Source of the DNA: Kaistia soli DSM 19436
Lineage (GTDB): Bacteria > Pseudomonadota > Alphaproteobacteria > Rhizobiales > Kaistiaceae
Direction: 5' to 3'
DNA length: 64,000 nt
NCBI RefSeq assembly: GCF_900129325.1
Contig: NZ_FQUP01000004.1
Span: 1-64,000 of the forward strand
A program made the position numbers and the translations under genes. The notes under the pieces were generated by a model that was not told the origin of the DNA, did not search any database, and worked only from the letters and a program-made list of their open reading frames with translations. Below are positions 5,301-22,279 of the stretch, piece after piece. Position 1 is the first letter of the stretch. Each line of letters opens with the position of its first letter.

Positions 5301-5978
5301 TCAGCGGCCTTCCATATAGCGGTCGAAGGCTTCCTTGACCGTTCCGATATGGGCCCGCATCTCGCGGGTTGCCTGCTCGCGGTCGCCGCGCAGGATCGAC
5401 TCCACGATGCGGTCGTGCTCGTCGAAGGAATCCGCCAGTCGGCCGACGCGGCGGAACTGCGCCCGGCGAAATGGGGCGAGCCTCGCCCGCGTCGCCAATG
5501 TCAGCTCGGCGAGATAGCCGTTATGAGCCCCGGCATAGATCGCGCCGTGAAAGCGCTCATTGGCCTCGGCATAGCGCAACGGGTCGCCAGACTTCACGAG
5601 TTCGCCAAGAACACTGTGCACGCGCTCCAGTTCTCGACGCTCCAGCAGGCTCATCGCCTCGGCCGCCAGCGCGGCGCAGAGGCTTTCGAGCTCCGCCATG
5701 ACGATGAACATCTCCATCAACCGGCTTTCGGACGGCCGGGTGACGATGGCCCCCCGATGTGCACGAATCTCGACCAGTCCGCTCGCGGCAAGCTGGCGCA
5801 ACGCCTCGCGCACCGGCGTCCGCGACACGCCATAGCGTGCCGCGAGCCCCGCCTCGTCGAGTGGATCGCCGGGCGCAAACACGCCGCGCACGATCTCGTC
5901 CGCAAGCTGCAGCCTCAGATCCTCGGTCCGCGTGCGGCGGACGGGAACATCTCCCGGGTCAGCCGCGCGCGCCCTCAC
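5301..5978 (-). CDS. GntR-family (FCD) regulator of the ring-opening amidohydrolase operon
   Basis: This 225-residue protein has an amino-terminal winged helix (about residues 18-80, with [15 protein letters not shown]) and an all-helical FCD ligand domain carrying the usual metal/ligand histidines. It is the last gene of the 13-gene minus-strand operon and overlaps the AtzH-like gene by four bases, so it is probably co-transcribed and is the natural candidate regulator. The paired ATTGCATACAAT sites at the operon's far promoter have the symmetry expected for this class. The inducer is likely an operon substrate or intermediate; this is inference. Confidence 0.85.
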
Positions 5979-6385
5979 GATCCTGTCCCGCCGCCGTCCG
6001 GATCGGCGATCAGGCTGACATGGGCGGCCGCGACCCGCCAGCCAGCGACCGTGCGTACCCAGGTCTGCGACTGGCGTCCGACCTTGCCGGGCGCGCTGTC
6101 GCGATAGAACAAGGTCGATGCGACGCCGCAGTCACGGCCATAGGTGGTAATCACCGTCCGGGCGAGCCGCCGCGCGAGGCCCGCCGGCGAGCGACCGGAG
6201 CGAAAGGCCGCGATCTCGTTGTAGCCGTAGAGGTTCTCTGTCGCTCCGTAACGGATCGTCGACGGCGAGACGAGGAAGAGCTCGTCCAGAACGGCGACGT
6301 CGTTGGCGACCAGCGCGGCCTCATAGCGGGCAAAAGCCGCTTCGAGTTCCGCCTTGGTCTCCGGATGGTCAATCTCGATTGTCAC
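5975..6385 (-). CDS. atzH: AtzH/HpxZ-like protein (DUF3225, SnoaL-like fold)
   Basis: This 136-residue single-domain protein of the HpxZ/AtzH group has the conserved [18 protein letters not shown] segment and a [14 protein letters not shown] strand pair. In the cyanurate pathway AtzH acts downstream of the AtzE-AtzG carboxybiuret hydrolase, and HpxZ homologues sit in oxalurate/allantoin loci, so this is an enzyme or chaperone of ureide breakdown. Here it lies next to AtzE and AtzG homologues in one operon, which strengthens the assignment. The exact reaction in this organism is inferred. Confidence 0.8.
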
Positions 6386-6395
6386 GATCCCTAGC

Positions 6396-7175
6396 TCAGC
6401 CCCCGCTCTTCTCGATGCGCGCCCTCAGATCGTTGAGGAACGGGATCGAGGCATATTGGTCGGCCTGCACGAAATCCCAGGCGACGCCCGTCGGCCGCGC
6501 CATGGTGGTGGCCGTTTCGATCAGGCCGACATCTGTGGCGATGAAATCGAGCGGCGAGTCGTGCGGCTGCATCGGAAGGAGCGCGTCGTCGACGACCTGC
6601 ACCGAATGCACCGATGTCGCGACGGGCGTTTCGGGCGTCACTTTGCCGAGCTCCCGGAAGATCCCGAGCTCGAGGTCGGCAAAGCCGCCGCCCTTGCCTG
6701 TCCGGCCACCGGCGCGGCTGACCGCAACACAGCCGACGACGACGAAATCGAGCGGCTCCATCTCTTCGAATTCCACCGGCTCGCCATGCTCGACGAAGCC
6801 CTGCGACACGGCGGCGAGTTCGAACTGGACGCCCTTGGCCTCGAGCACCGTCGGATCGAGGCGGACGAAGGGGAAGCCCTTGGTCAGTTCCGGCACCGGC
6901 GCATAGAGGATCTTGCCGTCATAGAGCGCACGCAGCCGGACCGGGATCTGTGGCGGATCGGGATTGCATTTGACGACGCGCGCATTCTTCCAGGCGTCGA
7001 GCCGGGAGAGATGCAGCGCCGCGAGATCGGCGCCAGCAAAGTTCGGGATGCGGCTGTCGACGGGTCCGACATTGACGCCGTCAGTCATGAGCTTTGCCCA
7101 GACACGATCGCGCAGCCGATCCTTGTCGTTGTTGCGTCCGGCCCAGCGGGCGTTGAGTTCGAGTTCCGTGGTCAT
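6396..7175 (-). CDS. 5-formyltetrahydrofolate cyclo-ligase family protein
   Basis: This 259-residue protein carries the ATP-binding [10 protein letters not shown] motif and the R(V/L)[10 protein letters not shown] region of the 5-FTHF cyclo-ligase (methenyltetrahydrofolate synthetase) family. It is longer than housekeeping cyclo-ligases (about 190-200 residues). The ATG at 7175 is chosen; an upstream start at 7268 would place 31 basic, unconserved residues inside the amidase gene. Its stop is 10 bp before the AtzH-like gene, and its start overlaps the amidase stop (ATGA). Being embedded in a heterocycle-degradation operon, it may act on a pathway formyl or amide intermediate rather than folate; nothing in the sequence decides this. 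Confidence 0.75.
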
Positions 7176-8587
7176 GAACCTTGCAATCGTATGGGGGCAA
7201 CCGGCGCCGCGGTGGTGCCGGCCTGATGCAACGCTTCGGCAACCCGCAGCGCGATGTCTTCTCGCCATGCAGGCGCGATCACCTGCACGCCGATCGGCAG
7301 ATGCGTGCCCGCCGGCCAGACCGGGACCGCGACGACCGGCAGGCCGATGAAGCTGATCGGCTGAGCGAAGATACCGATATTGGGCCGGGCCGGAACCCTG
7401 TTGCCGGCAAGTTCCACCTCTTTCGTGCCCGAGAGAAGCGCCGGAAACGGTGTCGAAGGGGCGAGAATGACGTCGACGGTCTCGAAGAGCCGCTCCATTT
7501 CGGCACGGAACCAGGAGCGGAAGCGCTGTGCAGCGACATACCAGGCCGCCGGCACCATGGCGCCGGAGAGAAAGCGGTCCCGGGTGTCAGGGTCGTAGTC
7601 ACGAGCGCGCGACTGCAATCGCGGCAGATGCAGGGCCGAGGATTCACTGGTCGTAATGACATAGGCGGCCGCGCGAGCCCGATGCACTTCCGGCAGGTCC
7701 ACCTCGCGGTCCGCACCGAGCGCCTTCGCCACATGATCGACAGCAGCAAGCGCTTCGTTGCCCGCCTGGCTGCGGAAATAGTCGCCGGCGACTGCAATAC
7801 GAAGTCCGTCGATGCCAGTTCTAAGAACGCGTTCCGCATCGAGCGAGCGCCGCGTCAACTGGTGGCGATCGTCGGGGTCAGGAAACTGCAGCGCGTCGAA
7901 AGCCATGGCGAGATCGCGCGGCGAACGCGCGATAGGCCCGAGATGGTCGAGGCTGGCGACGAACGGAAAAGTTCGGGCGCGCGAAAGGCGGCCGAAGGTC
8001 GGCTTCAGGCCATAGAGGCCGCAGAAGGACGACGGCACGCGGATCGAGCCATTGGTGTCAGACCCGAGCGACAGCGCCACCATGCCAGACGCGACGGCCG
8101 TGCCCGATCCGCCGGACGAGCCGCCCGACATCCGCGCCGGATCATGCGGATTGAGCGAGGCGCCGTCATGGACGTTCTCGCCGGTGAAGTCATAGGCGTA
8201 TTCGCCCATATTGACGCCGCCGATCAGCACCGCGCCCGCCTTCTGCATGCGCGTCACAAGGCTCGCATCGGCCGCGGCAGGTGGGTTCTCGCGGTTGATC
8301 TTCGAACCGGCGCGGGTGACGACCCCCTCGATGTCGAAAAGGTTCTTGACCGCATAGGGAACGCCCGCGAGCGGCGGCGCCGTACCACCGATCACGGCCG
8401 CATCGACGCGGTTCGCTTCCTCGATGGCCCGCTCGGCCGTCACGTCCGTGAAGGCATTGAGCTTGCCATCCAGCGCCTCGATGGCGTCCAGCGCCGCCTC
8501 GGTCACCTCCCGGGCGGAAACCCGGCGCGCGCGAACGTCGGCGGCGATCTCATGCCCTGGCCGGAACAGGATGTCGAAAGCACTCAC
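7172..8587 (-). CDS. atzE: AtzE-family amidase (amidase signature hydrolase)
   Basis: This 471-residue amidase-signature enzyme has the full catalytic triad: Lys in YAVKNLFDIEG, the cis-Ser in GGSSGGSG and the nucleophilic Ser in GSDTNGSIRVP. AtzE removes ammonia from 1-carboxybiuret in cyanurate degradation and needs the small subunit AtzG. The next gene upstream encodes an AtzG-like protein and overlaps by four bases, so the two-subunit arrangement is preserved. Glutamyl-tRNA amidotransferase subunit A is a relative, but the partner genes argue for the AtzE group. Confidence 0.88.
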   Translation of the reverse strand: MSAFDILFRPGHEIAADVRARRVSAREVTEAALDAIEALDGKLNAFTDVTAERAIEEANRVDAAVIGGTAPPLAGVPYAVKNLFDIEGVVTRAGSKINRENPPAAADASLVTRMQKAGAVLIGGVNMGEYAYDFTGENVHDGASLNPHDPARMSGGSSGGSGTAVASGMVALSLGSDTNGSIRVPSSFCGLYGLKPTFGRLSRARTFPFVASLDHLGPIARSPRDLAMAFDALQFPDPDDRHQLTRRSLDAERVLRTGIDGLRIAVAGDYFRSQAGNEALAAVDHVAKALGADREVDLPEVHRARAAAYVITTSESSALHLPRLQSRARDYDPDTRDRFLSGAMVPAAWYVAAQRFRSWFRAEMERLFETVDVILAPSTPFPALLSGTKEVELAGNRVPARPNIGIFAQPISFIGLPVVAVPVWPAGTHLPIGVQVIAPAWREDIALRVAEALHQAGTTAAPVAPIRLQGS

Positions 8588-8769
8588 GGCTCGAATACCG
8601 GCGCCGGCTCGACGTGATCATCGAGTTCGAACGCCATCACAAGCGCTGCCGCGCGCGCAGTGGCCGCCATGTTTGCGACGACGGACGGCAGCCAGGCCTC
8701 GTCGATGGTGAGCGCCATCACCGTCTCCATATGCGCGACATGCGCCGCGGCATCGAAATCACTCATCAC
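8584..8769 (-). CDS. atzG: AtzG-like small subunit (DUF4089)
   Basis: This 61-residue helical protein matches the short AtzG/DUF4089 family, the GatC-like small subunit that stabilises AtzE. Visible features are an amphipathic helix with LPSVVANMAATARAA and a LMAFELDDHVEPAPVF-type tail. It starts 12 bp after the preceding cysteine hydrolase stop and overlaps atzE by four bases. Because such genes are short they are often missed; the pairing with AtzE is the main evidence for its role. Confidence 0.85.
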   Translation of the reverse strand: MMSDFDAAAHVAHMETVMALTIDEAWLPSVVANMAATARAAALVMAFELDDHVEPAPVFEP

Positions 8770-8781
8770 TCAGTCCCTCCT

Positions 8782-9444
8782 TCACGCGGACGCAGCTTCA
8801 AGCGCGGCAAAGGGCGCCACGCACCCGACGATGGCCCCCTGCGCGGCGATCATCGAGACGGTCGCGGCCTTGTACTCGGGAAAATAGCTTTCGGTCGCAT
8901 CTTCGATCAGCAGGCAGTCGAAGCCACGATCATTGGCCTCGCGCATCGTTGTCTGCACGCACACCTCCGTCGTAACGCCGGCAAAGATGAGATGCGTGAT
9001 ACCGATCCGCGCGAGGTCCTCGCCGAGCGGCGTGGCGTAGAAAGCACCCTTGCCCGGCTTGTCGATCACGATCTCGCCGTCAACAGGCTGAAGCTCCGGA
9101 ATGATCGCATTGCCAGGCTCGCCGCGCACCATGATCCGCCCCATCGGCCCGGCATCGCCGATGCGCATCGACGGCGCGCCGCGGCAGATCTTGCTCGGGG
9201 GACAATCGGAAAGATCGGCCGCGTGACCCTCGCGCGTATGGATCACCGGCCAGCCGTTCGTACGGAAAAGGCCGATCAGCGCGGCGACAGTCGGGATGAT
9301 GGCACGCAGCAGCGAGACATCATTGCCGAGCGACTCGCCGAAGCCGCCCGGCTCGACGAAATCGCGCTGCATGTCGATGACGATCAGCGCTGTCTTGTCG
9401 GGAGGGAAGGCATAGGGGAACGGCTTTGCGTCGACGGTGATCAT
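8782..9444 (-). CDS. Isochorismatase-fold cysteine hydrolase (biuret/triuret-hydrolase-like), copy 1
   Basis: This 220-residue hydrolase shows the catalytic Asp ([10 protein letters not shown]), Lys (IDKPGKGAF) and Cys ([11 protein letters not shown]) of the isochorismatase superfamily, close in layout to biuret hydrolase BiuH, triuret hydrolase TrtA and RutB. It converts a ureide amide to the acid plus ammonia. A second homologue lies at 12121-12849; both share the RGEPG, IPELQP and REGH segments, so they probably arose by duplication and act on related intermediates. Start is ATG at 9444, two bases after the ABC ATPase stop. Confidence 0.85.
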
Positions 9445-9446
9445 GC

Positions 9447-10988
9447 TCAGTGCCCTGCCATTGCCTTGCCGATGGAATTGCGGTCGGCCTCGGCGATCGG
9501 CACGACATAATGGATGCCCCCGCCCGACATGACGGCGACACGGTCGGAAAGCTCCAGCACCTCGTCGAGATCCTCAGAGACCAGCAGCACGGCGGCGCCG
9601 CGGTTGCGCTGGTCCATGATCTGCGAGCGGATCTCCGACACCGAGGCGAAGTCGAGCCCGAAGCAGGGATTGGCGACGATCAGGACATCGACCTGTCCGG
9701 AAAGCTCGCGCGCGAGAATCGCGCGCTGGACATTGCCGCCCGAGAGATTCTCGATCGGTTCCTCGGTCGAGGGCGTCTTGATGCGATAGGCGGCGATTAG
9801 TTCGCGAGCCCTTTTGCGCATCGGCTTCGGCGACATGAAGCCGAAGCGCCGGGCGATCGGCGGCTCGTCGAAGGAACGGAACGCGATGTTTTCCGCAACG
9901 GTCATGCGTGGCACCGCCGCATTCTTCAGCGGCTCCTCCGGCAGGCCGAACACTTTGAATTTCGCCATCTGCTGACGCACGGGCTCGAAATTCTCGCCGT
10001 CGATGAAAAGCTGGCCCTCGGTCATGTCGCGCTGGCCGGAGAGCACCTCGATCAGCGTTGACTGGCCGTTGCCGGAAACGCCGGCGACGCCGACGATTTC
10101 GCCGGCATGGACCTTCAGATTGACCGCGTCGACCGCCGGCATGCCGCCGTCGTCCTCGGCGCAGACACCGGCCAGTTCCAGCGTCACCTTCTGGCCGGTG
10201 AACGCCTTGCGCGCCGCGCGCTCGCGGATCTTGGTATCCCCGATCATCATGCGGCTCATCTCGTCGACGCTGAGCGCGCTCACTGCGCCGCCGCCGACCT
10301 TTTGCCCCCGGCGGAGCACCGTGACGTCGTCGGCATAGGCCATGACCTCACGGAACTTGTGGCTGATCATCAGGATGGTCAGGTCGCCGGCCTGTGTCAT
10401 GCCGCGCAGCAGGCCAAGCACCTCGTCCGCCTCGCCCGGCGTCAACACCGATGTCGGCTCGTCGAGGATCAGGAATCGCTGGTCGAGATAAAGCTGCTTC
10501 AGGATCTCAAGCTTCTGCTTTTCGCCGGCCGAAAGGCTCGAGACAGGAACCGTCAGCGGCACCTTGAACGGCATGCGCTCCAGGAACGCCTCGAGCCCGG
10601 CGATCTCCTTCTTCCAATCGATCACCGCCGGGGGATGGGCGCGGCTGATGACGAGGTTTTCTGCCGCCGTCAGCGAGGGCACCAGCGTGAAATGCTGGTA
10701 GACCATGCCGATGCCATGCGCATGCGCATCGCGCGGCGTGGCGATGACCACTTCCTTGCCGCCCACCATCACGCTGCCACGCGTCGGCTGGTAGAAACCC
10801 ATGATGCATTTGACGAGCGTCGATTTACCGGCGCCGTTCTCGCCAAGCAGAGCATGCAGCGTGCCCGGCTTCACATGGATGGAAACATCCTCCAGCGCGA
10901 CCAGCGATCCGAAGATCTTGGTCATGCCGACGGTTTCGAGTTCCACCGCGCGGCGCGTGGTTCCTGTCGGTTCGGCGAACGCGGTCAT
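9447..10988 (-). CDS. ABC transporter ATP-binding protein, BMP/simple-sugar type (two NBDs)
   Basis: This 513-residue protein is built of two fused nucleotide-binding domains. The first has a full Walker A ([10 protein letters not shown]), signature LSAGEKQK and Walker B ([10 protein letters not shown]). The second has a degenerate Walker A ([11 protein letters not shown] for K), signature [11 protein letters not shown] and a weak Walker B. This asymmetry is typical for importers of nucleosides and simple sugars (RbsA/NupA type). It energises the permease pair at 13901-15942 with the binding protein at 16054-17169, although four enzyme genes separate them. Confidence 0.92.
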
Positions 10989-12121
10989 GACGGCGATCCT
11001 TCTGCTGCGACAAGCGATGGGAGGCGGCGGCGATCGGCAATGAGCGCGACGGGCCCGCCGCCATCGGGACCCTGGTGTTCGGCACCGCCCGACACATAGA
11101 TGCCGGCATGGCCGACAAGCGCCCCGAGGCTGCCGGCAACGAAAGCGCGGGCATGGCGCGTCGAGGAGATGTCGGAATCGTCGAGCATCGTGTGGCGGAG
11201 ACCGCGGAGGCGGCCGCTGGTGCCGGCCTCGGCCTTGGCAAGGAGCGCCATCAGCGCGGGACGCTCGCTGGGCGAAAGTTGTCCGTCGGCGTCAAAGCCG
11301 AGGCGACGCAGCGCGGCCCGCACCGGCTCGACATCGATGCCGTCTGCCATCACGGCATGATCGATCGCGAGCGGGCCCGACCAGTCGCGGCTCATGCCGA
11401 GCACGACGATCTCGTGATTGGCGAGCTCGACGCCGGCCGACGCCGAGGCCCTGCCCGACCAGAGCGAGGCATCACGGCCGATTGCTGCTTCATCGAAGCT
11501 TTCGAGCGCAATCTCGCCGAGCGCGACCGCGGCGCCAAGCGAGGAGGCACCGCGCGAAAGGCCCATGGATTTCAGCGTATCCCGCGTCGCGACGCTGCCG
11601 CCGCGCACCTCGACGGACGTGATGCGTTCGGCAGTCAGGAGCGGACATTTGATCTGCACGAAGTGAACGTCGGCGGGGTCATCGATGCCGGCATGCGCCA
11701 TAGCCGCGCGGACGCCCTCGGCGACGAGGCGGACCTGTCCAAGCCGGCCGAGCTCGTCGAAGGGCAGCGCCGGCGTATGCGCGCCGCCGACAGCGAGCGC
11801 CGGGCCAGCTCCGGCATCGGCCGTCTCGCCGCTGCCGAGCACCAGGAAATGCGGCGACATCGCCCCCTCCGTGCCGCCAGACATTACATAGGATACGGTC
11901 TCGACGGCCTCCGGCGAGAGATGTGGCCTGAGCGCATCCTTGAGCGCGCGGACGGCAAAGGCGCGGGTGAAGTCGTTGACATTGCCATTGCCCTCGGTCT
12001 TGCCGAGGATCGCGACAATCCCACGGGGATCGATGGTGCCCGACGCAATCGCGTCCGTCAGCCCCGAGACATCGTCGGGCGCCGCGGCCGCAATGCGATG
12101 GACAAAAGCAGTGCGCGCCAT
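10985..12121 (-). CDS. Ring-opening amidohydrolase (cyanuric acid hydrolase / barbiturase family)
   Basis: This 378-residue enzyme belongs to the small three-fold-symmetric AtzD/TrzD/barbiturase family that hydrolytically opens cyclic imide rings. The sequence shows three Ser-Lys repeats: K41 (ILGKTEGNG) with S81 (MSGGTEGAMSP), the middle repeat with SRGASSLGAAVALGE, and the last with SGGAEHQGPDGGGPVAL. The start is the ATG at 12121, overlapping the previous gene's stop; an upstream in-frame start would add 45 residues lying inside that gene. Neighbouring AtzE/G/H and biuret-hydrolase-like genes favour cyanurate; the nucleoside-type transporter leaves barbiturate or a related cyclic ureide possible. 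Confidence 0.88.
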   Translation of the reverse strand: MARTAFVHRIAAAAPDDVSGLTDAIASGTIDPRGIVAILGKTEGNGNVNDFTRAFAVRALKDALRPHLSPEAVETVSYVMSGGTEGAMSPHFLVLGSGETADAGAGPALAVGGAHTPALPFDELGRLGQVRLVAEGVRAAMAHAGIDDPADVHFVQIKCPLLTAERITSVEVRGGSVATRDTLKSMGLSRGASSLGAAVALGEIALESFDEAAIGRDASLWSGRASASAGVELANHEIVVLGMSRDWSGPLAIDHAVMADGIDVEPVRAALRRLGFDADGQLSPSERPALMALLAKAEAGTSGRLRGLRHTMLDDSDISSTRHARAFVAGSLGALVGHAGIYVSGGAEHQGPDGGGPVALIADRRRLPSLVAAEGSPS

Positions 12122-12849
12122 CAGACGAGCCCCGCGATCAATGCATCCGACGTCGCAACGGCACCGAAGACGCCACCCTGCATCTTGACCATGTCGATCG
12201 CCGCAAGGTGGTTCTCGCGCTTGGTAGCGGCTGTGCAGTCGCTGAGCAGCACGCATTCATAGCCGAGGTCGTTCGCATCCCGCATCGTGGTGTGCACGCA
12301 GACGTCTGTAGTGACGCCAGCCAGCACGATGTTGCGGATGCCCTTCTGCCGCAGCACCAGTTCGAGATCGGTCGCGACGAACGAGCCCTTGCCCGGCTTG
12401 TCGATGATCGTCTCGCCCTCAACCGGCTGCAGCTCGGGGATGATCTCCCAGCCTGGCTCGCCGCGCACGAGGATGCGCCCGCACGGACCCTGGTCGCCGA
12501 TGCCGGCGCCGATCCGCTGCGAGCGCCAGCGCTTGTTGGCCGGCAGGTCGGCGAGATCAGGGCGATGCCCCTCGCGGGTGTGGATGATGTGATAGCCCTT
12601 GGCGCGCATCGCATCGAGGACGCGGCGGATCGGCTCGATCGGCTCGCGCGTCAACGAGATGTCGTAGCCCATTGAGTCGACATAACCGCCCGGAGCGCAG
12701 AAATCGACCTGCATGTCGATGACGATGAGCGCGGTGTTTTCCGGCTTCAGATTGCCGTCGAACGGCCACGGATAGGGATCCGACGCAATCGTGCGCCCGC
12801 CCGGAACGACGGCTGCGGCGACCCGCTCGTCAAGAGTGTCTGTGCTCAT
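12121..12849 (-). CDS. Isochorismatase-fold cysteine hydrolase (biuret/triuret-hydrolase-like), copy 2
   Basis: This 242-residue homologue of the 8782-9444 hydrolase has catalytic Asp ([10 protein letters not shown]), Lys (IDKPGKGSF) and Cys ([11 protein letters not shown]), plus a 30-residue amino-terminal extension. It sits immediately upstream of the ring-opening amidohydrolase with a one-base overlap, the same adjacency seen between biuret hydrolase and cyanuric acid hydrolase genes in rhizobia. Biuret or triuret are the leading substrate guesses; ureidomalonate or ureidoacrylate cannot be excluded. Confidence 0.85.
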
Positions 12850-12858
12850 GTCCCGCCC

Positions 12859-13890
12859 CTATTCCGCCGCCTGCTGCGCGTCCGAGGCAGTTGCGCTCTC
12901 GCCATAGAGCCGTGTCGGGGCAGCAAAGCCGCAGGCCGTGCCGTCCGTATGGACGACATCCGCCTCCCATGGCAGGCGATAGCGGCCAGCGGCGAGGTCG
13001 GTCATGTAGCTGTAGGGGCAGTCCTGCGCGCCGCCTTTGACCGCGACATAGCCGCGATGGCCGAACTGATAGATGTTGTTCTCGACGCCCCAGTTGATGC
13101 GCGCTTCGCGCACGAGATCGGGCCGAACCTCGGCAGTGATAATCTCGTCAGGCCGGCCGCTCGTGCCATGGGCGATGATCTCGCCGTCGAAGTTGACGAT
13201 CATGCCCTCGCCCATGGAATCGAACGTGCCGTCCGAGCCCGACATGCAGACATTGGCGGTGACCATCAGATTGCAGAAGGCGTTGGACTGGTTGGTGAAG
13301 CGCCAGCTCTGGCGGATCGGCGCGGTGTAGCCCGCCGTGCGGATCATGATCTCGGCGCCCTTATAGGCACATTCACGCGCCATCTCGGGGAACATGCCGT
13401 CATGGCAGATGATCAGCGCCAGCTTGCAGCCCTTGGGGCCGTCGATGACGGGAATTCCGATGTCGCCCGGTTCCCATGGCTCGACGGGCACCCAGGGATG
13501 GAGCTTCCGGTAATAAAGCTTCAGCGTGCCCGTATCGTCGATGACGATGCCGGAATTATAGGGATTGCCTCCAGGATTGCGCTCCATGATCGAGAAGCAG
13601 CCCCAGATCCTGTGGCGCGCGCAGGCCTCCTTGAACGCGGCGACCTCCGGCCCGTCGAGATCGCACATGATCTCGGGATTGGTATCCATCGAGAGCCCGT
13701 GCAGCGCATATTCCGGGAACACGACGAGGTCCATGCCGGCATTGTTCCGCCGCGCCTTGCCGACCAGTTCGACGACCCGCGCGGTCTGGCGCGCGAGGTC
13801 GTCCTTCGTCACCGTCACCGGCAATTGCAACTGAACGAGGCCGATGACGACGCCAGCAGGCGCTTTGTTGAGACCGCCCAGACCGTTCAT
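12859..13890 (-). CDS. amiF: Nitrilase-superfamily formamidase (AmiF-like)
   Basis: This 343-residue enzyme has the Glu-Lys-Cys triad of nitrilase-fold amidases: FPEYALHG, YYRKLHPW and LIICHDGMFPEMARE. Similarity to AmiF formamidase extends along the length (FSIMERNP, KLHPWVPVEPWEPGD, ENNIYQFGHRGYVA, SYMTDLAAGRYRLPWE). AmiF hydrolyses formamide to formate and ammonia. In this operon it suggests that a pathway step releases formamide or a small aliphatic amide, a step absent from the textbook cyanurate route. Confidence 0.85.
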   Translation of the reverse strand: MNGLGGLNKAPAGVVIGLVQLQLPVTVTKDDLARQTARVVELVGKARRNNAGMDLVVFPEYALHGLSMDTNPEIMCDLDGPEVAAFKEACARHRIWGCFSIMERNPGGNPYNSGIVIDDTGTLKLYYRKLHPWVPVEPWEPGDIGIPVIDGPKGCKLALIICHDGMFPEMARECAYKGAEIMIRTAGYTAPIRQSWRFTNQSNAFCNLMVTANVCMSGSDGTFDSMGEGMIVNFDGEIIAHGTSGRPDEIITAEVRPDLVREARINWGVENNIYQFGHRGYVAVKGGAQDCPYSYMTDLAAGRYRLPWEADVVHTDGTACGFAAPTRLYGESATASDAQQAAE

Positions 13891-13900
13891 GGCGACACTC

Positions 13901-14827
13901 CTATTTGGTGATCGACAATTCGCCCGGCGCGCCCTTCAGCGAGCGCTTCGGCGAGACGGAGGCGATCATGATGAAAAGGGTCAGCAGGTAGGGCGCCGCA
14001 TTGAAGAAGTAGTAGCCCTGCGTGATGCCGACCGATTGTAGCGCCGGCCCGATGGCACCGGCCGCGCCGAAGAGCAGGGCCGCCGCGAAGCAGAGCAGCG
14101 GGTTCCAGCGCGAGAAGATGACAAGCGCCACCGCCATCAGGCCCTGTCCCGAAGAGAGGCCTTCGCTCCAGGCGCCCGGATAATAGAGCGACAGGAAGGC
14201 ACCGCCGACGCCCGCGAAGAAGCCGCCGACCGTCGTGGCCAGAAAGCGGACGAGATCGACCGAATAGCCCATGGCCAGCGCCGCCGGCGCGCTGTCTCCG
14301 GTCATGCGGATGATGAGGCCCCAGCGCGTATTCTTGAACGCCCACCACATCGCCACGGCGAGGACAATGCCCACCAGGAACAGCGGGTTGATCTCCAGCG
14401 CCGACTGGATCTGCGGATAATCAGACCATCCGCCGAGATTGATCGATGGCAAATGTGGCGCCTGCGGCTGGATGAAGGGCTTGCCGAAGAAGAAGGCGAG
14501 GCCCGTGCCGAACAGCATCATGGCGATGCCGATCGCGATGTCGTTCACCTTGGGAAGCTTGCAGATATAGCCGTGGATGGCGCCGAAGAACATGCCGGAG
14601 ATACCCGCCGCCAGCACGCCGAGCCAGGGCGAGCCGGAAAGATACGAGACCGCGTAGCCCGACATCGCGCCAAAGACGAGCGTGCCCTCGAGGCCAAGAT
14701 TGATGCGGCCCGACTTCTCGGTGAGGCATTCCCCGAGCGAGACGAAAAGGAAGGGCGTCGAGACGCGGATTGCCCCGGCGAACATCGCAAGAGGAACGCC
14801 CCAGAAGCCGATATCGGTCCCGCTCAT
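13901..14827 (-). CDS. ABC transporter permease, BMP/nucleoside type, subunit 2
   Basis: This 308-residue polytopic membrane protein of the branched simple-sugar/nucleoside permease group has roughly eight to nine hydrophobic helices and the family EAA-like segment EKSGRINLGLEGTL. The ATG at 14827 is chosen because it overlaps the preceding permease stop; a longer open frame upstream is only the overlap of the other permease in another frame. It forms the channel together with the 14824-15942 product. Confidence 0.9.
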   Translation of the reverse strand: MSGTDIGFWGVPLAMFAGAIRVSTPFLFVSLGECLTEKSGRINLGLEGTLVFGAMSGYAVSYLSGSPWLGVLAAGISGMFFGAIHGYICKLPKVNDIAIGIAMMLFGTGLAFFFGKPFIQPQAPHLPSINLGGWSDYPQIQSALEINPLFLVGIVLAVAMWWAFKNTRWGLIIRMTGDSAPAALAMGYSVDLVRFLATTVGGFFAGVGGAFLSLYYPGAWSEGLSSGQGLMAVALVIFSRWNPLLCFAAALLFGAAGAIGPALQSVGITQGYYFFNAAPYLLTLFIMIASVSPKRSLKGAPGELSITK

Positions 14828-15942
14828 CGCTTGTCTCCTCTCGCCCGGAAGAATGGCATGCGGCCATAAAGCGTCTCGCTGACCAGCAGCACCACGAACA
14901 TCAGCCCCTGCAACACCTGCACCGTCGCGTCGGGCATGCCCATCCGGCGCTGGATGAGGCCGCCTGCCGCCGCGATGCCGCCGAGGAAGACCGCGACAGG
15001 GACGATGGCGAGCGGGTTCTGGCGGGCGAGGAATGCGACGAGAATGCCTGTGAAGCCGTAGCCGGCGGCGAGCGATGCATTGGCCTTGCCCTGGATTGCC
15101 GCGACTTCGAAGAAGCCGGCGAGCCCCGCGCAGGCGCCGGCGATCGCGCATGAAATGACGATAAGCCGGCCGACCGGCAGTCCCTGGGCCCGCGCCGCAC
15201 GCACATTGCCGCCGGTGACGCGTGCGGCGAAGCCGAAGGTGGTGCGGTTCATCAGCACCCAGAGCAAGATCGCCACAACGATACCGACCGGCAGCCCCCA
15301 ATGGACGCCAAGGCCCGGCACGTCGCCGATCATGTTGGCCTCGCCAATGGCCTGGGTCGACGGCTTGTTCGGATTGGCTGGATCGCGTAGCGCGCCTTCG
15401 ACGAAGAAGTTCATGATCGCGATGGCGATATAGGACATCAGCAGGCTGGCGATCGTCTCGTTGATGCCGCGATAGTGGCGGAGTACGCCGACGAGCCCGA
15501 TCCAGAGCCCTCCAACGGCGATGGCGCAAAGACCCATGACCGGGAGAACGACGAAGCTCGGCGCGCCGGCATTCACCAGCGGAATGGACGCCACGGCGGC
15601 AGCGAATCCGCCGAGCACCAGCGCGCCCTCGCCGCCGACGATGGTGAGACCGAGCCGGGCCGGAACGGCGACGCAGAGCGCGGTGAGAATCAACGGCGCG
15701 GCGCGCACCAGCGTGTTCTCCCACGAGAACCCTGTGCCGAAGCCGCCGCGCCAGAGCAGTGAGAAGAAGGTTGCCGGTGACTGGCCGAGCGCCAGCAGGA
15801 AAATCGAGAAGAGCAGCCCGGCGGCCACGAGCGCGAACAGCGGGATCAAGACATATTCCGACGATCGCCGTAGCCGGTCGAGCAACTCGGCAAGCCCGCC
15901 ATAGACTGCCGGCGTCGCGTCCTGCTGTGCAATATCCGCCAT
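14824..15942 (-). CDS. ABC transporter permease, BMP/nucleoside type, subunit 1
   Basis: This 372-residue permease has a long cytoplasmic amino terminus, about nine membrane helices and the family motif ARLGLTIVGGEGAL. It is the first permease after the binding protein, separated from it by 111 bp that contain GC-rich hairpins, and overlaps the second permease by four bases. The start at 15942 is preferred over an in-frame upstream codon because homology begins near MADIAQQD. Confidence 0.9.
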   Translation of the reverse strand: MADIAQQDATPAVYGGLAELLDRLRRSSEYVLIPLFALVAAGLLFSIFLLALGQSPATFFSLLWRGGFGTGFSWENTLVRAAPLILTALCVAVPARLGLTIVGGEGALVLGGFAAAVASIPLVNAGAPSFVVLPVMGLCAIAVGGLWIGLVGVLRHYRGINETIASLLMSYIAIAIMNFFVEGALRDPANPNKPSTQAIGEANMIGDVPGLGVHWGLPVGIVVAILLWVLMNRTTFGFAARVTGGNVRAARAQGLPVGRLIVISCAIAGACAGLAGFFEVAAIQGKANASLAAGYGFTGILVAFLARQNPLAIVPVAVFLGGIAAAGGLIQRRMGMPDATVQVLQGLMFVVLLVSETLYGRMPFFRARGDKR

Positions 15943-16027
15943 CGAAGCTCTCCCGAGGAGACAAGGGACCGAAGCGGCGGCGCCGCCCGTCATCCGCCCC
16001 GGCCTCGACCGGAGCGGTGCTCTCATG

Positions 16028-16046
16028 CGGCGGGACTTACCCGCCG
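16028..16046 (-). other. Stem-loop after the BMP binding-protein gene
   Basis: A perfect 7-bp stem (CGGCGGG/CCCGCCG) with a five-base loop lies just after the stop codon of the binding protein and before the permeases. Such intercistronic hairpins often protect the binding-protein message so that it outnumbers the membrane subunits. There is no T-run, so full termination is unlikely. Confidence 0.5.
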
Positions 16047-16053
16047 GGGCCTA

Positions 16054-17169
16054 TCAGGTGATGGAGCCGGTGACGCCTTCGACCAGGAAGTTGATCTGGT
16101 CGATCCACGGATCGTAGGGCGCATGCACGGTACCGGCCGGGATGACTTCCTTGCCGGTGTTGTCCTTGAGCGGACCGACATAGACCGGCACCTTAGCCTT
16201 CATCTCGATCTTCGCCGCGTCAGCCGCCTTGATCGCCTCAGGCGTCGCTCCCGCGCCGTAGGGGGTGTTCTGCACGAAATCGAGGTCATAGCCGCCCGAC
16301 AGGAAGTTCGGCAGCTCGCCGCCCTTGGCCAGCGTGTCGGCATACTGCTTGTAGATCGTCTCCCACTTGTATTCGGCGCCGGTGATGAAACCCTTAGGCG
16401 CGAGATCGGCCTGCGAGGCATTATGGCCGCACGACTTGACGCCTTTGGCTTCGGCGTTCTGGATGACGGTCTTCGGGCTATCGACATGGCAGGTGATGAC
16501 GTCGCAGCCGGCATCGATCAGCGCGTTGGTTGCCTCGGCCTCGCGCACCGGCATCGACCAGTCGCCGGTGAAGATCACCTGAACGGTCGCGTTGGGATTG
16601 ACCTTGCGGGCCCCGATCGCGAACGAATTGATGTTGGAGAGCACCGAGGAGATCGGCTTGGCGGCGACAAAGCCGAGCTTGTTCGACTTGGTCGAGAGGC
16701 CGGCGGCGATGCCGTCGATGTAGTGGGCCTGATCGAGATAGCCGAAATAGCTGCCGGCGTTCTTCGGATCCTTGTCGGTCCAGAGGGGCGCCGCATGGCG
16801 GAACTGAACGTCGGGATATTTCTTCGCGGCATCGACCATGAATGGCGAGTAATAGCCGAAGGACGTCGCGAAGATCAGGCCGGCGCCATCGAGTTCGACC
16901 ATCGACTCCATGGTCTTGGCCACAGCAACCGTCTCGGGGACGTTCTCTTCTTCCACAACCTTGACGCCCGGCACGGCAGCCAGCGCCTTGGCCGCCACGG
17001 CATGCGCCTGGTTCCAGCCATAGTCGTCGCGCGAGCCGACATAGATGATGCCGATCGTCAGATCGGCCGCAAACGCCGGGCGGCGTGTCAACAGGCCGGT
17101 CGTCAGGCCGAGAGAGCCGATGGCGGCGCTCTTGAGCAGCGTCCTGCGATTGAGCGAAAATGCGGACAT
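16054..17169 (-). CDS. BMP-family ABC transporter substrate-binding protein
   Basis: This 371-residue periplasmic lipoprotein-type BMP/PnrA protein has a Tat-like signal (NRRTLLKSAAIGSLGL...AFA, cleavage near residue 33). The mature part opens with LTIGIIYVGSRDDYGWNQAH, typical for nucleoside-binding BMP proteins. It is the first gene of the operon and should determine what is imported. The ATG at 17169 is chosen because the signal peptide starts there; a longer frame upstream reads through promoter sequence. Known BMP ligands are purine and pyrimidine nucleosides, so a purine/pyrimidine-like or triazine ring is plausible. Confidence 0.9.
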   Translation of the reverse strand: MSAFSLNRRTLLKSAAIGSLGLTTGLLTRRPAFAADLTIGIIYVGSRDDYGWNQAHAVAAKALAAVPGVKVVEEENVPETVAVAKTMESMVELDGAGLIFATSFGYYSPFMVDAAKKYPDVQFRHAAPLWTDKDPKNAGSYFGYLDQAHYIDGIAAGLSTKSNKLGFVAAKPISSVLSNINSFAIGARKVNPNATVQVIFTGDWSMPVREAEATNALIDAGCDVITCHVDSPKTVIQNAEAKGVKSCGHNASQADLAPKGFITGAEYKWETIYKQYADTLAKGGELPNFLSGGYDLDFVQNTPYGAGATPEAIKAADAAKIEMKAKVPVYVGPLKDNTGKEVIPAGTVHAPYDPWIDQINFLVEGVTGSIT

Positions 17170-17596
17170 GGGCAATACCTTTTGCAACGGACATCGGCGC
17201 AGGCCTCCCGGCGCCGGGGTGTTCCCACTTCCGTCTCTCGCAACAGATGTGCCAAGGCGGCGACAGGTGACGGCGTGCTGCGCACAAGCGCACGCAAACA
17301 TTTGATTGAACGAGCCGATTCCGATTGGGATCGTCGCTGTCCGAAGACCTCACCTGCCATGTTGCGTTCCGCCACCGATGCTCACACGGCTCCATTGCAT
17401 ACAATAGCGCTCGATTGCATACAATTTAGACAGGCGCATGGAACGGCTGATATTGCGGCCCACAAATGCGGCAGCTGCGACGCGGCGATGCGTTGACTTG
17501 GTGCCTGCCGGCGGTTGGCAGGGGCCGCCCCGCATACTAGGTTCGTCCACCGCCGGCCTCGACGCTGGCGCCCCGAAAATGCGAGAGGACCGCTCC
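17170..17596. other. 427-bp divergent promoter region of the ring-opening operon
   Basis: This gap separates the minus-strand binding-protein operon from the plus-strand FAH-family gene. It contains the paired ATTGCATACAAT sites at 17394-17425. An in-frame extension of the plus-strand gene back to 17438 is open but shows no family similarity, so the region is taken as regulatory. Confidence 0.6.
17394..17425. promoter_or_regulatory. Tandem operator candidates, two copies of ATTGCATACAAT
   Basis: The identical 12-mer occurs at 17394-17405 and 17414-17425, start to start 20 bp, i.e. about two helical turns on the same face. Each copy is an inverted repeat ATTG-N4-CAAT, the pattern expected for a dimeric GntR/FCD regulator. 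The placement in the divergent promoter and the GntR gene at the operon end make it the probable binding site; binding itself is inferred. Confidence 0.65.
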
Positions 17597-18772
17597 ATGT
17601 CGTTCGATGTGACACCCGCTTTTGCCCTGCCACAGGATGCCGGCGAGGCGACGCTCGTTGGGCGGGTGTTCAGGCCCGATCTCGACGGTCCCTCCATCAT
17701 TTCGCTGAGGGGCGACGAGGTCTTCGACATCACGGCCGCGGTCGTCACCATGCGCGACCTCTGCGAGACGGAAGATCCGGGCCGCGTTGCCGCCATGGCC
17801 GACGGCGAGACGCTTGGCAGCCTTGCCGATATCCTCGCCAACACGCCGCTCGCGACGCGTGATCGCACCAAGCCGTGGCTGATCTCGCCGATCGACCTCC
17901 AGGCGGTGAAGGCCGCCGGCGTCACCTTCGTCGTCTCGATGCTGGAACGCGTGATCGAAGAGCAGGCGCGCGGCCTGCCCGAACGCGCCAATGCGATCCG
18001 CTCGGAGATCCAGACGACGATCGGCGACGATCTCGCTCGTCTCCGCCCCGGCTCCGAGCAGGCGGCGGCGCTGAAGGCGCTGCTGATCGAAAAGGGCATG
18101 TGGTCGCAATATCTCGAGGTCGGCATCGGCCCGGACGCGGAGATCTTCTCGAAGGCACAGCCGATGTCGAGCGTCGGCCATCTCGCCGAGGTCGGCATTC
18201 ATCCGATCTCGACCTGGAACAATCCCGAGCCGGAAGTGGTGCTCGTCGTCTCTTCGAGCGGCCATATCGTCGGCGCGACGCTCGGCAATGACGTCAACCT
18301 GCGCGATGTCGAGGGCCGCTCGGCGCTGTTGCTGTCGAAGGCCAAGGACAACAATGCCAGCGCCTCGATCGGACCGTTCATCCGCCTGTTCGACGCCTCG
18401 TTCTCGCTCGACGATGTCAGGCAGACCGAGGTCCGGCTGACGGTGACGGGCGAGGACGGCTTCCGCCTGGACGGGTCCAGCGCGATGTCGAAGATCAGCC
18501 GTGACCCCGCGGATCTCGTCAAGCAGACCGTCGGCAAGAACCATCAATATCCCGACGGCTTCGTGCTCTATCTCGGCACGATGTTCGCCCCGGTGCAGGA
18601 CCGCGACGGTCCCGGCCAGGGCTTCACGCACAAGATCGGCGACATCGTGACGATTGCAGCGCCGAAGCTCGGCCAGTTGTCAAACCGCGTGGTTCTATCC
18701 TCGGATGCCGAGCCCTGGACCTTCGGCGCCACCGCGCTGATGCGGAACCTGTCGGGGCGCGGCCTCCTCTAG
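17597..18772 (+). CDS. Fumarylacetoacetate hydrolase family protein
   Basis: This 391-residue protein of the FAH/fumarylpyruvate hydrolase superfamily has the metal site pattern EPEVVL and the GNDVNLRDVEGRSALLL and KAKDNNAS segments. FAH-family enzymes cleave or hydrate 2-oxo/2,4-dioxo acids. The start at 17597 follows a GAGAGGA ribosome site at 17583-17589. It diverges from the ring-opening operon and shares its presumed operators, so it may process the carbon skeleton left after nitrogen removal. It ends before a bidirectional terminator. Confidence 0.85.
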   Translation: MSFDVTPAFALPQDAGEATLVGRVFRPDLDGPSIISLRGDEVFDITAAVVTMRDLCETEDPGRVAAMADGETLGSLADILANTPLATRDRTKPWLISPIDLQAVKAAGVTFVVSMLERVIEEQARGLPERANAIRSEIQTTIGDDLARLRPGSEQAAALKALLIEKGMWSQYLEVGIGPDAEIFSKAQPMSSVGHLAEVGIHPISTWNNPEPEVVLVVSSSGHIVGATLGNDVNLRDVEGRSALLLSKAKDNNASASIGPFIRLFDASFSLDDVRQTEVRLTVTGEDGFRLDGSSAMSKISRDPADLVKQTVGKNHQYPDGFVLYLGTMFAPVQDRDGPGQGFTHKIGDIVTIAAPKLGQLSNRVVLSSDAEPWTFGATALMRNLSGRGLL

Positions 18773-20929: not shown

Positions 20930-22279
20930 ATGGGGTTGGCGATGGCGGCAAGGGCGATCCGTGGAACGGTGGCTCGGTTTCAGGGCGACCCCTTCGGCCC
21001 TGCAGGACGCGAGGCGCTGGTCTTCGAGGAAGATTGCCTCGTCCTCGTGGAGGACGGCATCATCGCCCGCGTCGGCCCGGCCGAAACCATGCTGGCAAGC
21101 CTGCCGCCCGGCACGCCCGTCGATCACTATCCCGGTGCGATCCTTTCACCTGGATTCATCGACGCTCATGTCCACTATCCGCAGATGCAGATGATCGGGG
21201 CCGCCGGTGAGGAGTTACTCGCCTGGCTCGACGCCTTCACATTTCCCGCCGAGGCTGGGTTTTCCGACCCGGAACATGCCGAGGATGTCGCCGGGCGCTT
21301 CCTGCGCGAATTGCTCCGGGCCGGCACGACCACCGCTGCGGTCTACTGCACGGTGCACGCCCATTCGGTCGATGCGTTCTTCGCCGAGTCCGAGCGCTTC
21401 GGCACGCGCATGATCGCTGGCAAGGTGCTCATGGACCGCAACGCCCCGCCGGACCTCACCGACACGGCGGCCAGCGGCACCGAGGAAAGCGCCACGCTGA
21501 TCGCCCGCTGGCATGGCAAGGGCCGCCAACTCTACGCGATCACACCCCGCTTCGCGCCATCCTGTTCGGAGGAGCAACTCGAAGCCGCCGGCCGCCTCTG
21601 GCGGGAGCATCCCGGCACCTACGTCCAGACCCATCTTTGCGAAAACGTCGCCGAAACGGCTTGGGTCGCTGAGCTCTTTCCCGAACGATCGAGCTATCTC
21701 GATGTCTACGACCATGCCGGTTTGACCGGCCCGCGCGCCATTTTCGGCCATGCCGTGCATATGACGGAAGCGGACTTCGCCTGCTGCCACCGCACGGGTT
21801 CGGTACTGGCACACTGCCCGACCTCAAACCTGTTCCTGGGCAGCGGCCTTTTCCGCCTGTTCGAGGCAAAACGCGCCGATCGGCCGGTCAAGGTCGCGCT
21901 CGGCACGGATCTTGGCGCCGGCACCAGCTTTTCCCAGCTCCAGACCATGAACGAGGCCTACAAGGTGGCAAAGCTCGGCGGCACCACGCTGTCCACAGCC
22001 GAGGCGCTCTGGCTCGCGACGACAGGCGCTGCCGAGGCGCTGCATCTCTCCGATCGCATCGGCGCCATCGAGCCTGGCCGCGAGGCGGATATCATCGTGC
22101 TCGATCCCGCGGCGACACCGCTCCTTCAGTTCCGCACCGCCTATTGCCGCGACCTCACGGAGACGCTTTCCGTCCTAATGACGCTTGGCGATGATCGCGC
22201 CGTCCGCGCAAGCTATGTCGCCGGCGTACCAGTCTATGACCGCGACCGGGCCGGCGATCCGTTCGTCTATCCCACCTGA
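20930..22279 (+). CDS. guaD: Guanine deaminase
   Basis: This 449-residue metal-dependent amidohydrolase has the zinc ligands in FIDAHVHYPQ, the THLCEN and GHAVHMTEAD motifs, CPTSNLFLGSGLF and the LGTDLGAGTSFSQLQT segment that mark guanine deaminases. It converts guanine to xanthine and ammonia. Bacterial guanine deaminases have also been reported to deaminate ammeline, an s-triazine, which is notable 2 kb from a cyanurate-type operon. Its last 13 bp overlap the end of the convergent GH1 gene. A start at 20942 is also possible. Confidence 0.92.
   Translation: MGLAMAARAIRGTVARFQGDPFGPAGREALVFEEDCLVLVEDGIIARVGPAETMLASLPPGTPVDHYPGAILSPGFIDAHVHYPQMQMIGAAGEELLAWLDAFTFPAEAGFSDPEHAEDVAGRFLRELLRAGTTTAAVYCTVHAHSVDAFFAESERFGTRMIAGKVLMDRNAPPDLTDTAASGTEESATLIARWHGKGRQLYAITPRFAPSCSEEQLEAAGRLWREHPGTYVQTHLCENVAETAWVAELFPERSSYLDVYDHAGLTGPRAIFGHAVHMTEADFACCHRTGSVLAHCPTSNLFLGSGLFRLFEAKRADRPVKVALGTDLGAGTSFSQLQTMNEAYKVAKLGGTTLSTAEALWLATTGAAEALHLSDRIGAIEPGREADIIVLDPAATPLLQFRTAYCRDLTETLSVLMTLGDDRAVRASYVAGVPVYDRDRAGDPFVYPT

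Follow-up and report, generated by a model that had tools for sequence, protein, structure and literature searches.

The first 64,000 nucleotides of contig NZ_FQUP01000004.1 of Kaistia soli DSM 19436 (hereafter the window), part of a genome of 5.23 Mb in 15 contigs, carry an operon of 13 close-packed minus-strand genes (5301-17169) which, judged by its gene content, is very probably a nitrogen-scavenging system for triuret, biuret and cyanuric acid. Read from the promoter, its genes are predicted to encode a BMP-type binding protein, two permeases, a formamidase (AmiF), the biuret hydrolase BiuH, the cyanuric acid hydrolase AtzD, an ATPase, the triuret hydrolase TrtA, AtzG, AtzE, a 5-formyltetrahydrofolate-cyclo-ligase-like (5-FCL-like) protein, AtzH and a GntR regulator. 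The 12 intergenic gaps measure -4 to 18 bases, the exception being 111 bases between the gene of permease 2 and the BMP gene. An earlier note on this DNA had described thirteen tight minus-strand genes with a divergent FAH-family gene, and had read them as a single operon whose products import a substrate, open its ring and release ammonia step by step. The layout is confirmed and the reading is supported: family models and solved structures match the ring opener, the two biuret/triuret hydrolases, the AtzE, AtzG and AtzH homologues, the AmiF formamidase and the BMP importer that it had named, while the 5-FCL-like gene had no name there. Comparison of the gene order in relatives, which the note had proposed as a check, revealed conservation across 61 distinct loci.

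These loci were gathered with AtzD (80 loci), the 5-FCL-like protein and TrtA as queries and are not a random sample. TrtA, BiuH and the ATPase were held by 64 loci, of which three duplicates were dropped, leaving 61 including the window; 26 of the 80 AtzD loci are among them, and in the other 54 at least one of TrtA, BiuH and the ATPase is missing from view. The core gene order is common to the window and the 60 other distinct loci. Family-model scores are given below with the cut-off of the model, both in bits.

Proposed pathway and its hydrolases

In the pathway that we propose, a BMP-type ATP-binding cassette (ABC) importer would take up one or more planar ureides. Triuret would be hydrolysed by TrtA and the ring of cyanuric acid opened by AtzD, and both reactions would yield 1-carboxybiuret, which is the product of homologues of both enzymes. 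The half-life of carboxybiuret, which breaks down to biuret, is near 20 minutes (PMC7948467). Two fates could follow: by loss of CO2 carboxybiuret would give biuret, which BiuH would convert to allophanate, or AtzEG would deaminate it to 1,3-dicarboxyurea, which AtzH would decarboxylate to allophanate. Since BiuH occurs together with AtzG, AtzE and AtzH, both fates would end in allophanate, a fork that we deduce from gene content. Thus, the biuret route and the dicarboxyurea route, the two that are known for cyanurate, would be united in one operon, which would sidestep the biuret dead end of Pseudomonas sp. ADP. The latter is unable to use biuret, and AtzH is thought to avert dead ends (PMC6219798). 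Allophanate would be finished in trans by an AtzF encoded beside urea carboxylase, and leaked urea might enter urea carboxylase or either urease.

AtzD, BiuH and TrtA all have matches among known enzymes of the route. AtzD (10985-12121) passes the cyanuric acid hydrolase equivalog NF052395 (548 vs 360) and scores 457 bits against solved cyanuric acid hydrolases (4nq3), compared to 244 bits against barbiturase; family model and nearest solved relatives alike predict a cyanuric acid hydrolase. The isochorismatase-family protein BiuH (12121-12849) passes NF050097 (414 vs 370) and is nearest to the R. leguminosarum BiuH entries (6azo, 407 bits). TrtA (8782-9444), of the same family, matches 6xix with 312 bits, the next kind reaching 215; 6xix is named TrtA in PMC7948467, from which the residues separating both enzymes were taken as well. 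The triad D24, K129 and C162 together with E72, K132, Q202, F35, N41, E160 and I205 is present in the TrtA of 61/61 operons, window included, while all 61 BiuH proteins carry Tyr, Tyr, Asp and Val at the four contrasting positions, so that these residues sort TrtA and BiuH cleanly in every operon.

The second arm of the fork is formed by AtzG, AtzE and AtzH. The AtzE-family amidase (1-carboxybiuret hydrolase subunit, 7172-8587) passes NF006631 (673 vs 461), and its best solved match is 6c62 with 495 bits, the next kind following at 219. We take 6c62 to be the AtzE of Pseudomonas sp. ADP, the structure entry itself being titled biuret hydrolase. The AtzG-like small subunit (8584-8766) matches PF13318 (61.3 vs 24). 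The AtzH/HpxZ-like decarboxylase (5975-6385) matches PF11533 (184 bits), and its best solved match is AtzH itself (6bjt, 152 bits). Pairwise alignment shows that Tyr22 and Arg46 of the Pseudomonas ADP AtzH, numbered by hand from a primer in PMC6219798, are both conserved in the window. The arginine is found in 39/39 operon AtzH proteins and the tyrosine pattern in 20/39, a pattern too narrow to judge the others.

AtzH also passes the HpxZ equivalog NF033625 (191.7 vs 135), and clusters of atzG, atzE and atzH mostly occur without atzD and atzF (PMC6219798). One might therefore envision that AtzG, AtzE and AtzH act, in the manner of the HpxXYZ oxalurate genes, on oxalurate or another purine ureide and are merely co-located with the remaining genes. 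However, AtzE and AtzH are closest to their namesakes among solved proteins, AtzGE directly follows TrtA, whose product is the AtzEG substrate, and no HpxW-like gene was found among the 13 operon genes, the rest of the genome not having been searched for HpxW. Hence, we consider an oxalurate role improbable and prefer the carboxybiuret fork.

A scan of AtzH columns gave a further lead. Position 52 is Leu in 25/25 AtzH proteins whose operon contains AtzE and Gln in 12/14 without it, and 3.6 of 5 independent pairs point in the same direction, none in the opposite (p 0.125). Among 60 further AtzH loci, which are the best scoring ones and include the window (L266) and some genomes already sampled, those with AtzE nearby carry Leu in 36/41 and Gln in 0/41 cases, but those without AtzE nearby carry Leu in 18/19. 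Bxe_B1374, a protein of solved structure, carries Gln at this position. Gln thus never occurs with AtzE, but a missing AtzE is no predictor of Gln, so we rejected the position as a marker for AtzE and keep it as a lead only. The genome contains a second AtzH/HpxZ-like gene (C9:306732-307094; 132.5 bits, just below 135), which adjoins an amidase-like stretch (307214-307678).

The earlier note saw no AtzF. None is found among the 13 genes, and to that extent the observation stands, but a profile search of the genome detected AtzF on another contig (C12:81025-82698; 814 vs 511), directly after urea carboxylase (1844 vs 1304), and two ureases score above cut-off as well. Consequently, the idea that AtzF is truly missing from the genome was rejected; allophanate hydrolase lies outside the operon. 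A second candidate (C4:1644440-1645738) scores 486, below the cut-off of 511, and thus fails TIGR02713, while its 541-amino-acid frame passes the broader allophanate hydrolase model NF006043 (513 vs 487). This second allophanate hydrolase-like gene (L185:8459-11518, contig C4) adjoins a third BiuH/TrtA-like isochorismatase (277 bits, below 370). Of the 61 compared operon loci, 27 have AtzF no more than 9 kb away from TrtA.

Importer and its likely ligands

The importer comprises an ATPase with two PF00005 stretches (9447-10988), permease 1 (13901-14827, matched within the longer frame 13901-15964) and permease 2 (14824-15942), both of family PF02653 (BPD_transp_2), and the BMP-type binding protein (16054-17169; PF02608, 122 bits). 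The nearest solved protein to the latter is AtzT (6pi5, 159 bits), and 3s99, presumably a Brucella BMP protein, scores almost equally. We compared the AtzT contact residues Tyr45, Ser97, Phe98, Glu165, Trp194, Asn218 and Asn220. Ser97, Phe98 and Trp194 are conserved and Tyr45 is replaced by Trp, while Glu165, Asn218 and Asn220 correspond to Ser175, His228 and Asp230. The pocket thus retains two aromatic walls (Trp52, Trp204) along with Ser103 and Phe104. For AtzT, affinities of about 110 nM for guanine and 2.2 µM for 2-hydroxyatrazine are reported (PMC6834077); in the alignment to AtzT, the window protein does not have this contact set. The importer, described earlier as nucleoside-type, therefore deserves that name by family only, as three contact residues of its nearest solved relative differ.

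Across 57 BMP proteins, positions 53, 54, 103-106, 179, 204 and 228-230 are invariant, whether or not AtzD is present in the operon; position 52 is Trp or Tyr, and positions 149 and 175 vary. With a pocket that does not vary with AtzD, a ligand shared by every operon, for example triuret or biuret, is a better fit than cyanurate on its own. This might suggest that the operon serves mainly triuret and biuret, with AtzD as an add-on and cyanurate not imported. AtzD is indeed missing from 28/61 operons, its distances follow those of the ATPase weakly (Spearman 0.35), and in two loci (L026 and L029) it is accompanied by a different ABC transporter. However, in 31 of the 33 operons that contain AtzD, its gene sits between those of BiuH and the ATPase (read from the locus listing), its start overlaps the stop of BiuH in the window, and the choice of queries has biased the sample. 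We therefore regard this restricted role as possible, though rather unlikely, and retain cyanuric acid as a probable substrate of the system next to triuret and biuret.

Formamidase and the 5-FCL-like protein

The formamidase (12859-13890) passes NF009803 (567 vs 406) and matches 5g3o with 361 bits. The AmiF motifs FPEY, PxEPW and CHDG are found in 33/33 operon formamidases and the Lys pattern in 25/33, window included; we take these motifs to provide the Glu, Lys, Glu and Cys of AmiF. In all 33 formamidase-bearing operons the gene lies between permease 1 and BiuH (read from the locus listing), and its distances track those of the ATPase (Spearman 0.65). Owing to this fixed position and the distances following the ATPase, the formamidase is no stray. 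In the searched literature on cyanuric acid, biuret hydrolase and triuret it is not mentioned, most subscription papers lying outside that search.

A second puzzle is the 5-FCL-like protein (6396-7175), which passes PF01812 (74 vs 27) and fails the 5-FCL equivalog TIGR02727 (28 vs 84.9). Its closer relatives share 54-76% identity, and of 27 regions around them, 23 hold operons of the window kind, two of these being duplicates; two more (L155, L175) are cut pieces with other operon genes, and two (L160, L168) show no other operon gene. Distant relatives (30-37%) occur in other settings, some paired around an ABC gene. A second 5-FCL-like protein of the genome (contig C7, L179:9582-10337) is 36% identical, and open reading frames near it show weak matches to AtzE (165 bits) and AmiF (51 bits).

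The earlier note had taken the formamidase and the FAH gene as signs of a substrate outside the cyanurate, biuret and triuret route. According to this idea, the ring to be opened would belong to a formyl- or carbon-bearing ureide, for instance an azapyrimidine or a modified barbiturate, and the formylated ureide would be finished by formamidase and FAH protein, which would account for a formamidase and a 5-FCL-like protein in the operon and for the fixed place and ATPase-like distances of the former. However, AtzD is far closer to cyanuric acid hydrolases than to barbiturase, the diagnostic residues of TrtA and BiuH are retained throughout, formamidase is missing from 28/61 operons, and the FAH gene is in view in 6/61 loci. 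Furthermore, the atzD cluster of R. leguminosarum bv. viciae contains a formamidase in the same place, so that this gene by itself is no argument for another substrate. With AtzD, TrtA, BiuH, AtzE, AtzG and AtzH all matching the cyanurate route and AtzF in the genome, the claim does not hold up, and we consider such a ring ureide very improbable.

A related scenario would keep the three substrates and add a fourth: the operon might be a general salvage system for non-enzymatic nucleobase oxidation products, namely triuret, cyanuric acid, biuret and formylurea. Here, formylurea would be cut to N-carboxyformamide by TrtA or BiuH, loss of CO2 would give formamide, from which formamidase would release ammonia, and the 5-FCL-like protein might act next to AtzH on an intermediate with a formyl or carboxy group. 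The TrtA of Herbaspirillum acts on formylurea at 0.3% of the triuret rate (PMC7948467, Table 2). This broader salvage seems unlikely to us as a whole. A formyl-bearing side substrate of the formamidase is conceivable.

Distribution and history of the operon

Of 14 genomes in the genus, 10 have a TrtA. Counted up to a distance of 9 kb from TrtA, the 61 loci contain AtzD in 33 cases, formamidase in 33, AtzG in 23, AtzE in 30, the 5-FCL-like protein in 32, AtzH in 39 and a cupin in 16. On a quick tree built from ATPase, TrtA and BiuH, where change counts cannot tell gain from loss, AtzD requires 13 changes, formamidase 12, nearby AtzF 13, AtzE 7, the 5-FCL-like protein 5, and the states cupin, AtzH or none 2-3. 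As AtzD and formamidase each keep one position, repeated gain at that position seems unlikely; thus we read both as old operon members that were lost repeatedly. Distances of formamidase, AtzH, AtzE, the 5-FCL-like protein, BiuH, TrtA and the BMP protein follow those of the ATPase (Spearman 0.52-0.76; 0/500 permutations as high). In the AtzD tree of 87 rows, operon and other contexts are separated by 3 changes if 10 short-contig rows are left out, while the operon rows need 6 if these are counted; the other contexts include partial operons without TrtA in view (e.g., L034). That AtzD keeps a constant position, together with an importer, TrtA and BiuH, in an operon occurring across the Hyphomicrobiales fits cyanurate use predating herbicide chemistry, yet does not prove it.

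A cupin occurs in 16/61 loci and AtzH in 39/61, both together in none and neither in 6. Repeated exchange of the two was considered and rejected: the tree needs only the 2-3 changes given above and the cupin loci form one clade. They thus represent one event, and Fisher p values were not used.

Regulation

A sigma-54-type promoter, TGGCAC-N5-TTGC, is predicted at 17239-17254 on the minus strand, about 70-85 bases before the BMP start, and is conserved in 6/6 aligned rows including the window. The class TGGCAY-N5-TTGC lies upstream of the importer in 43/53 loci, compared to a mean of 0.085 and a largest value of 1 in 200 Markov resamplings. This recurrence suggests nitrogen control and transcription of the operon from a sigma-54-type promoter. 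The operons of Pseudomonas sp. ADP are sigma-54 dependent (PMC6834077). In Bradyrhizobium sp. DOA9, a sigma-54 site at -73 is given for BMP gene v1_51377, and isochorismatase v1_51380 is reported as down in rpoN mutants (PMC13207237); from the gene numbers we infer that both belong to one such operon.

The last gene of the operon encodes a GntR-FCD regulator (5301-5978; PF07729 and PF00392). It probably acts at a pair of TTGTATGCAA sites, 20 bases apart (17395-17424, minus strand), which are the only two exact copies in the window. The pair is present in 6/6 aligned rows with at most one change per site, and a looser form occurs upstream in 30/53 loci, a figure that stands without a chance control.

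Several points weigh against the scheme as a whole or against its control. AtzF lies outside the operon and would have to act in trans, AtzEG beside BiuH is redundant on paper, and oxalurate is served by the HpxZ and AtzE families too. The formamidase has no place in the scheme, and together with the 5-FCL-like protein it would be an accessory part. As to the promoter, the window shows no enrichment of a loose sigma-54 pattern (16 matches vs 25 expected), and 6/53 upstream regions match on the opposite strand.

Comparison with known systems

The closest described system is that of Rhizobium leguminosarum bv. viciae. On a plasmid of strain 248, genes for a BMP protein, two permeases, formamidase, isochorismatase, atzD, ATPase, a cysteine hydrolase and a cupin are found with a divergent GntR gene. 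In strain 3841, AtzD and BiuH were studied (PMC5806882) and TrtA was reported (PMC7948467), while the papers disagree on AtzF: it is not close to BiuH according to PMC5806882, whereas PMC7948467 places it in an operon with TrtA and BiuH. The order of importer genes, formamidase, BiuH, atzD, ATPase and TrtA is the same as in the window, and a GntR gene is nearby in both. However, TrtA is followed by a cupin there and by AtzG, AtzE, the 5-FCL-like protein, AtzH and GntR in the window, and the R. leguminosarum GntR gene is divergent and at the other cluster end. Since this cluster is described, the window holds a variant of a described system, a richer version of the root-nodule-bacterial cluster whose novelty lies in its gene combination.

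Other arrangements exist. Ideonella has a BMP protein, two permeases, isochorismatase, ATPase, isochorismatase, atzF, hpxZ and GntR, and in Mesorhizobium B1-1-8 the cupin form occurs, which there includes atzF but neither formamidase nor atzD. With atzDGEHF and atzRSTUVW of Pseudomonas sp. ADP (PMC6834077, PMC6219798), the window shares AtzD, AtzG, AtzE, AtzH, a BMP-type importer and sigma-54 control, but its operon lacks AtzF, adds BiuH and TrtA, has a GntR regulator and includes the importer. The triuret clusters of Herbaspirillum and ammonia oxidisers (trtA, trtB, biuH, atzF, bmpA-nupABC) likewise combine an importer with triuret and biuret hydrolases; in contrast to the window, no atzD was found in those nitrifiers, and the accessible text describing the clusters names neither formamidase nor cyclo-ligase (PMC7948467, PMC12625717). 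The Hpx pathway shares the AtzG, AtzE and AtzH families with the window, and differs by its HpxW.

Neighbouring genes and other AtzD contexts

The FAH-family gene (17597-18772, plus strand, start about 17597; PF01557, 38.4 vs 23.9) is a lineage-specific neighbour of the operon. In the two loci with another transporter (L026:4291-11083, L029:4146-11080), AtzD lies beside an allantoinase/dihydroorotase-like gene and a TRZ/ATZ-type amidohydrolase, possibly representing a separate s-triazine or purine route. Finally, a guanine deaminase gene (20930-22279; TIGR02967, 559 vs 375) lies near the operon and is likewise in view in the nearest relative (L075).

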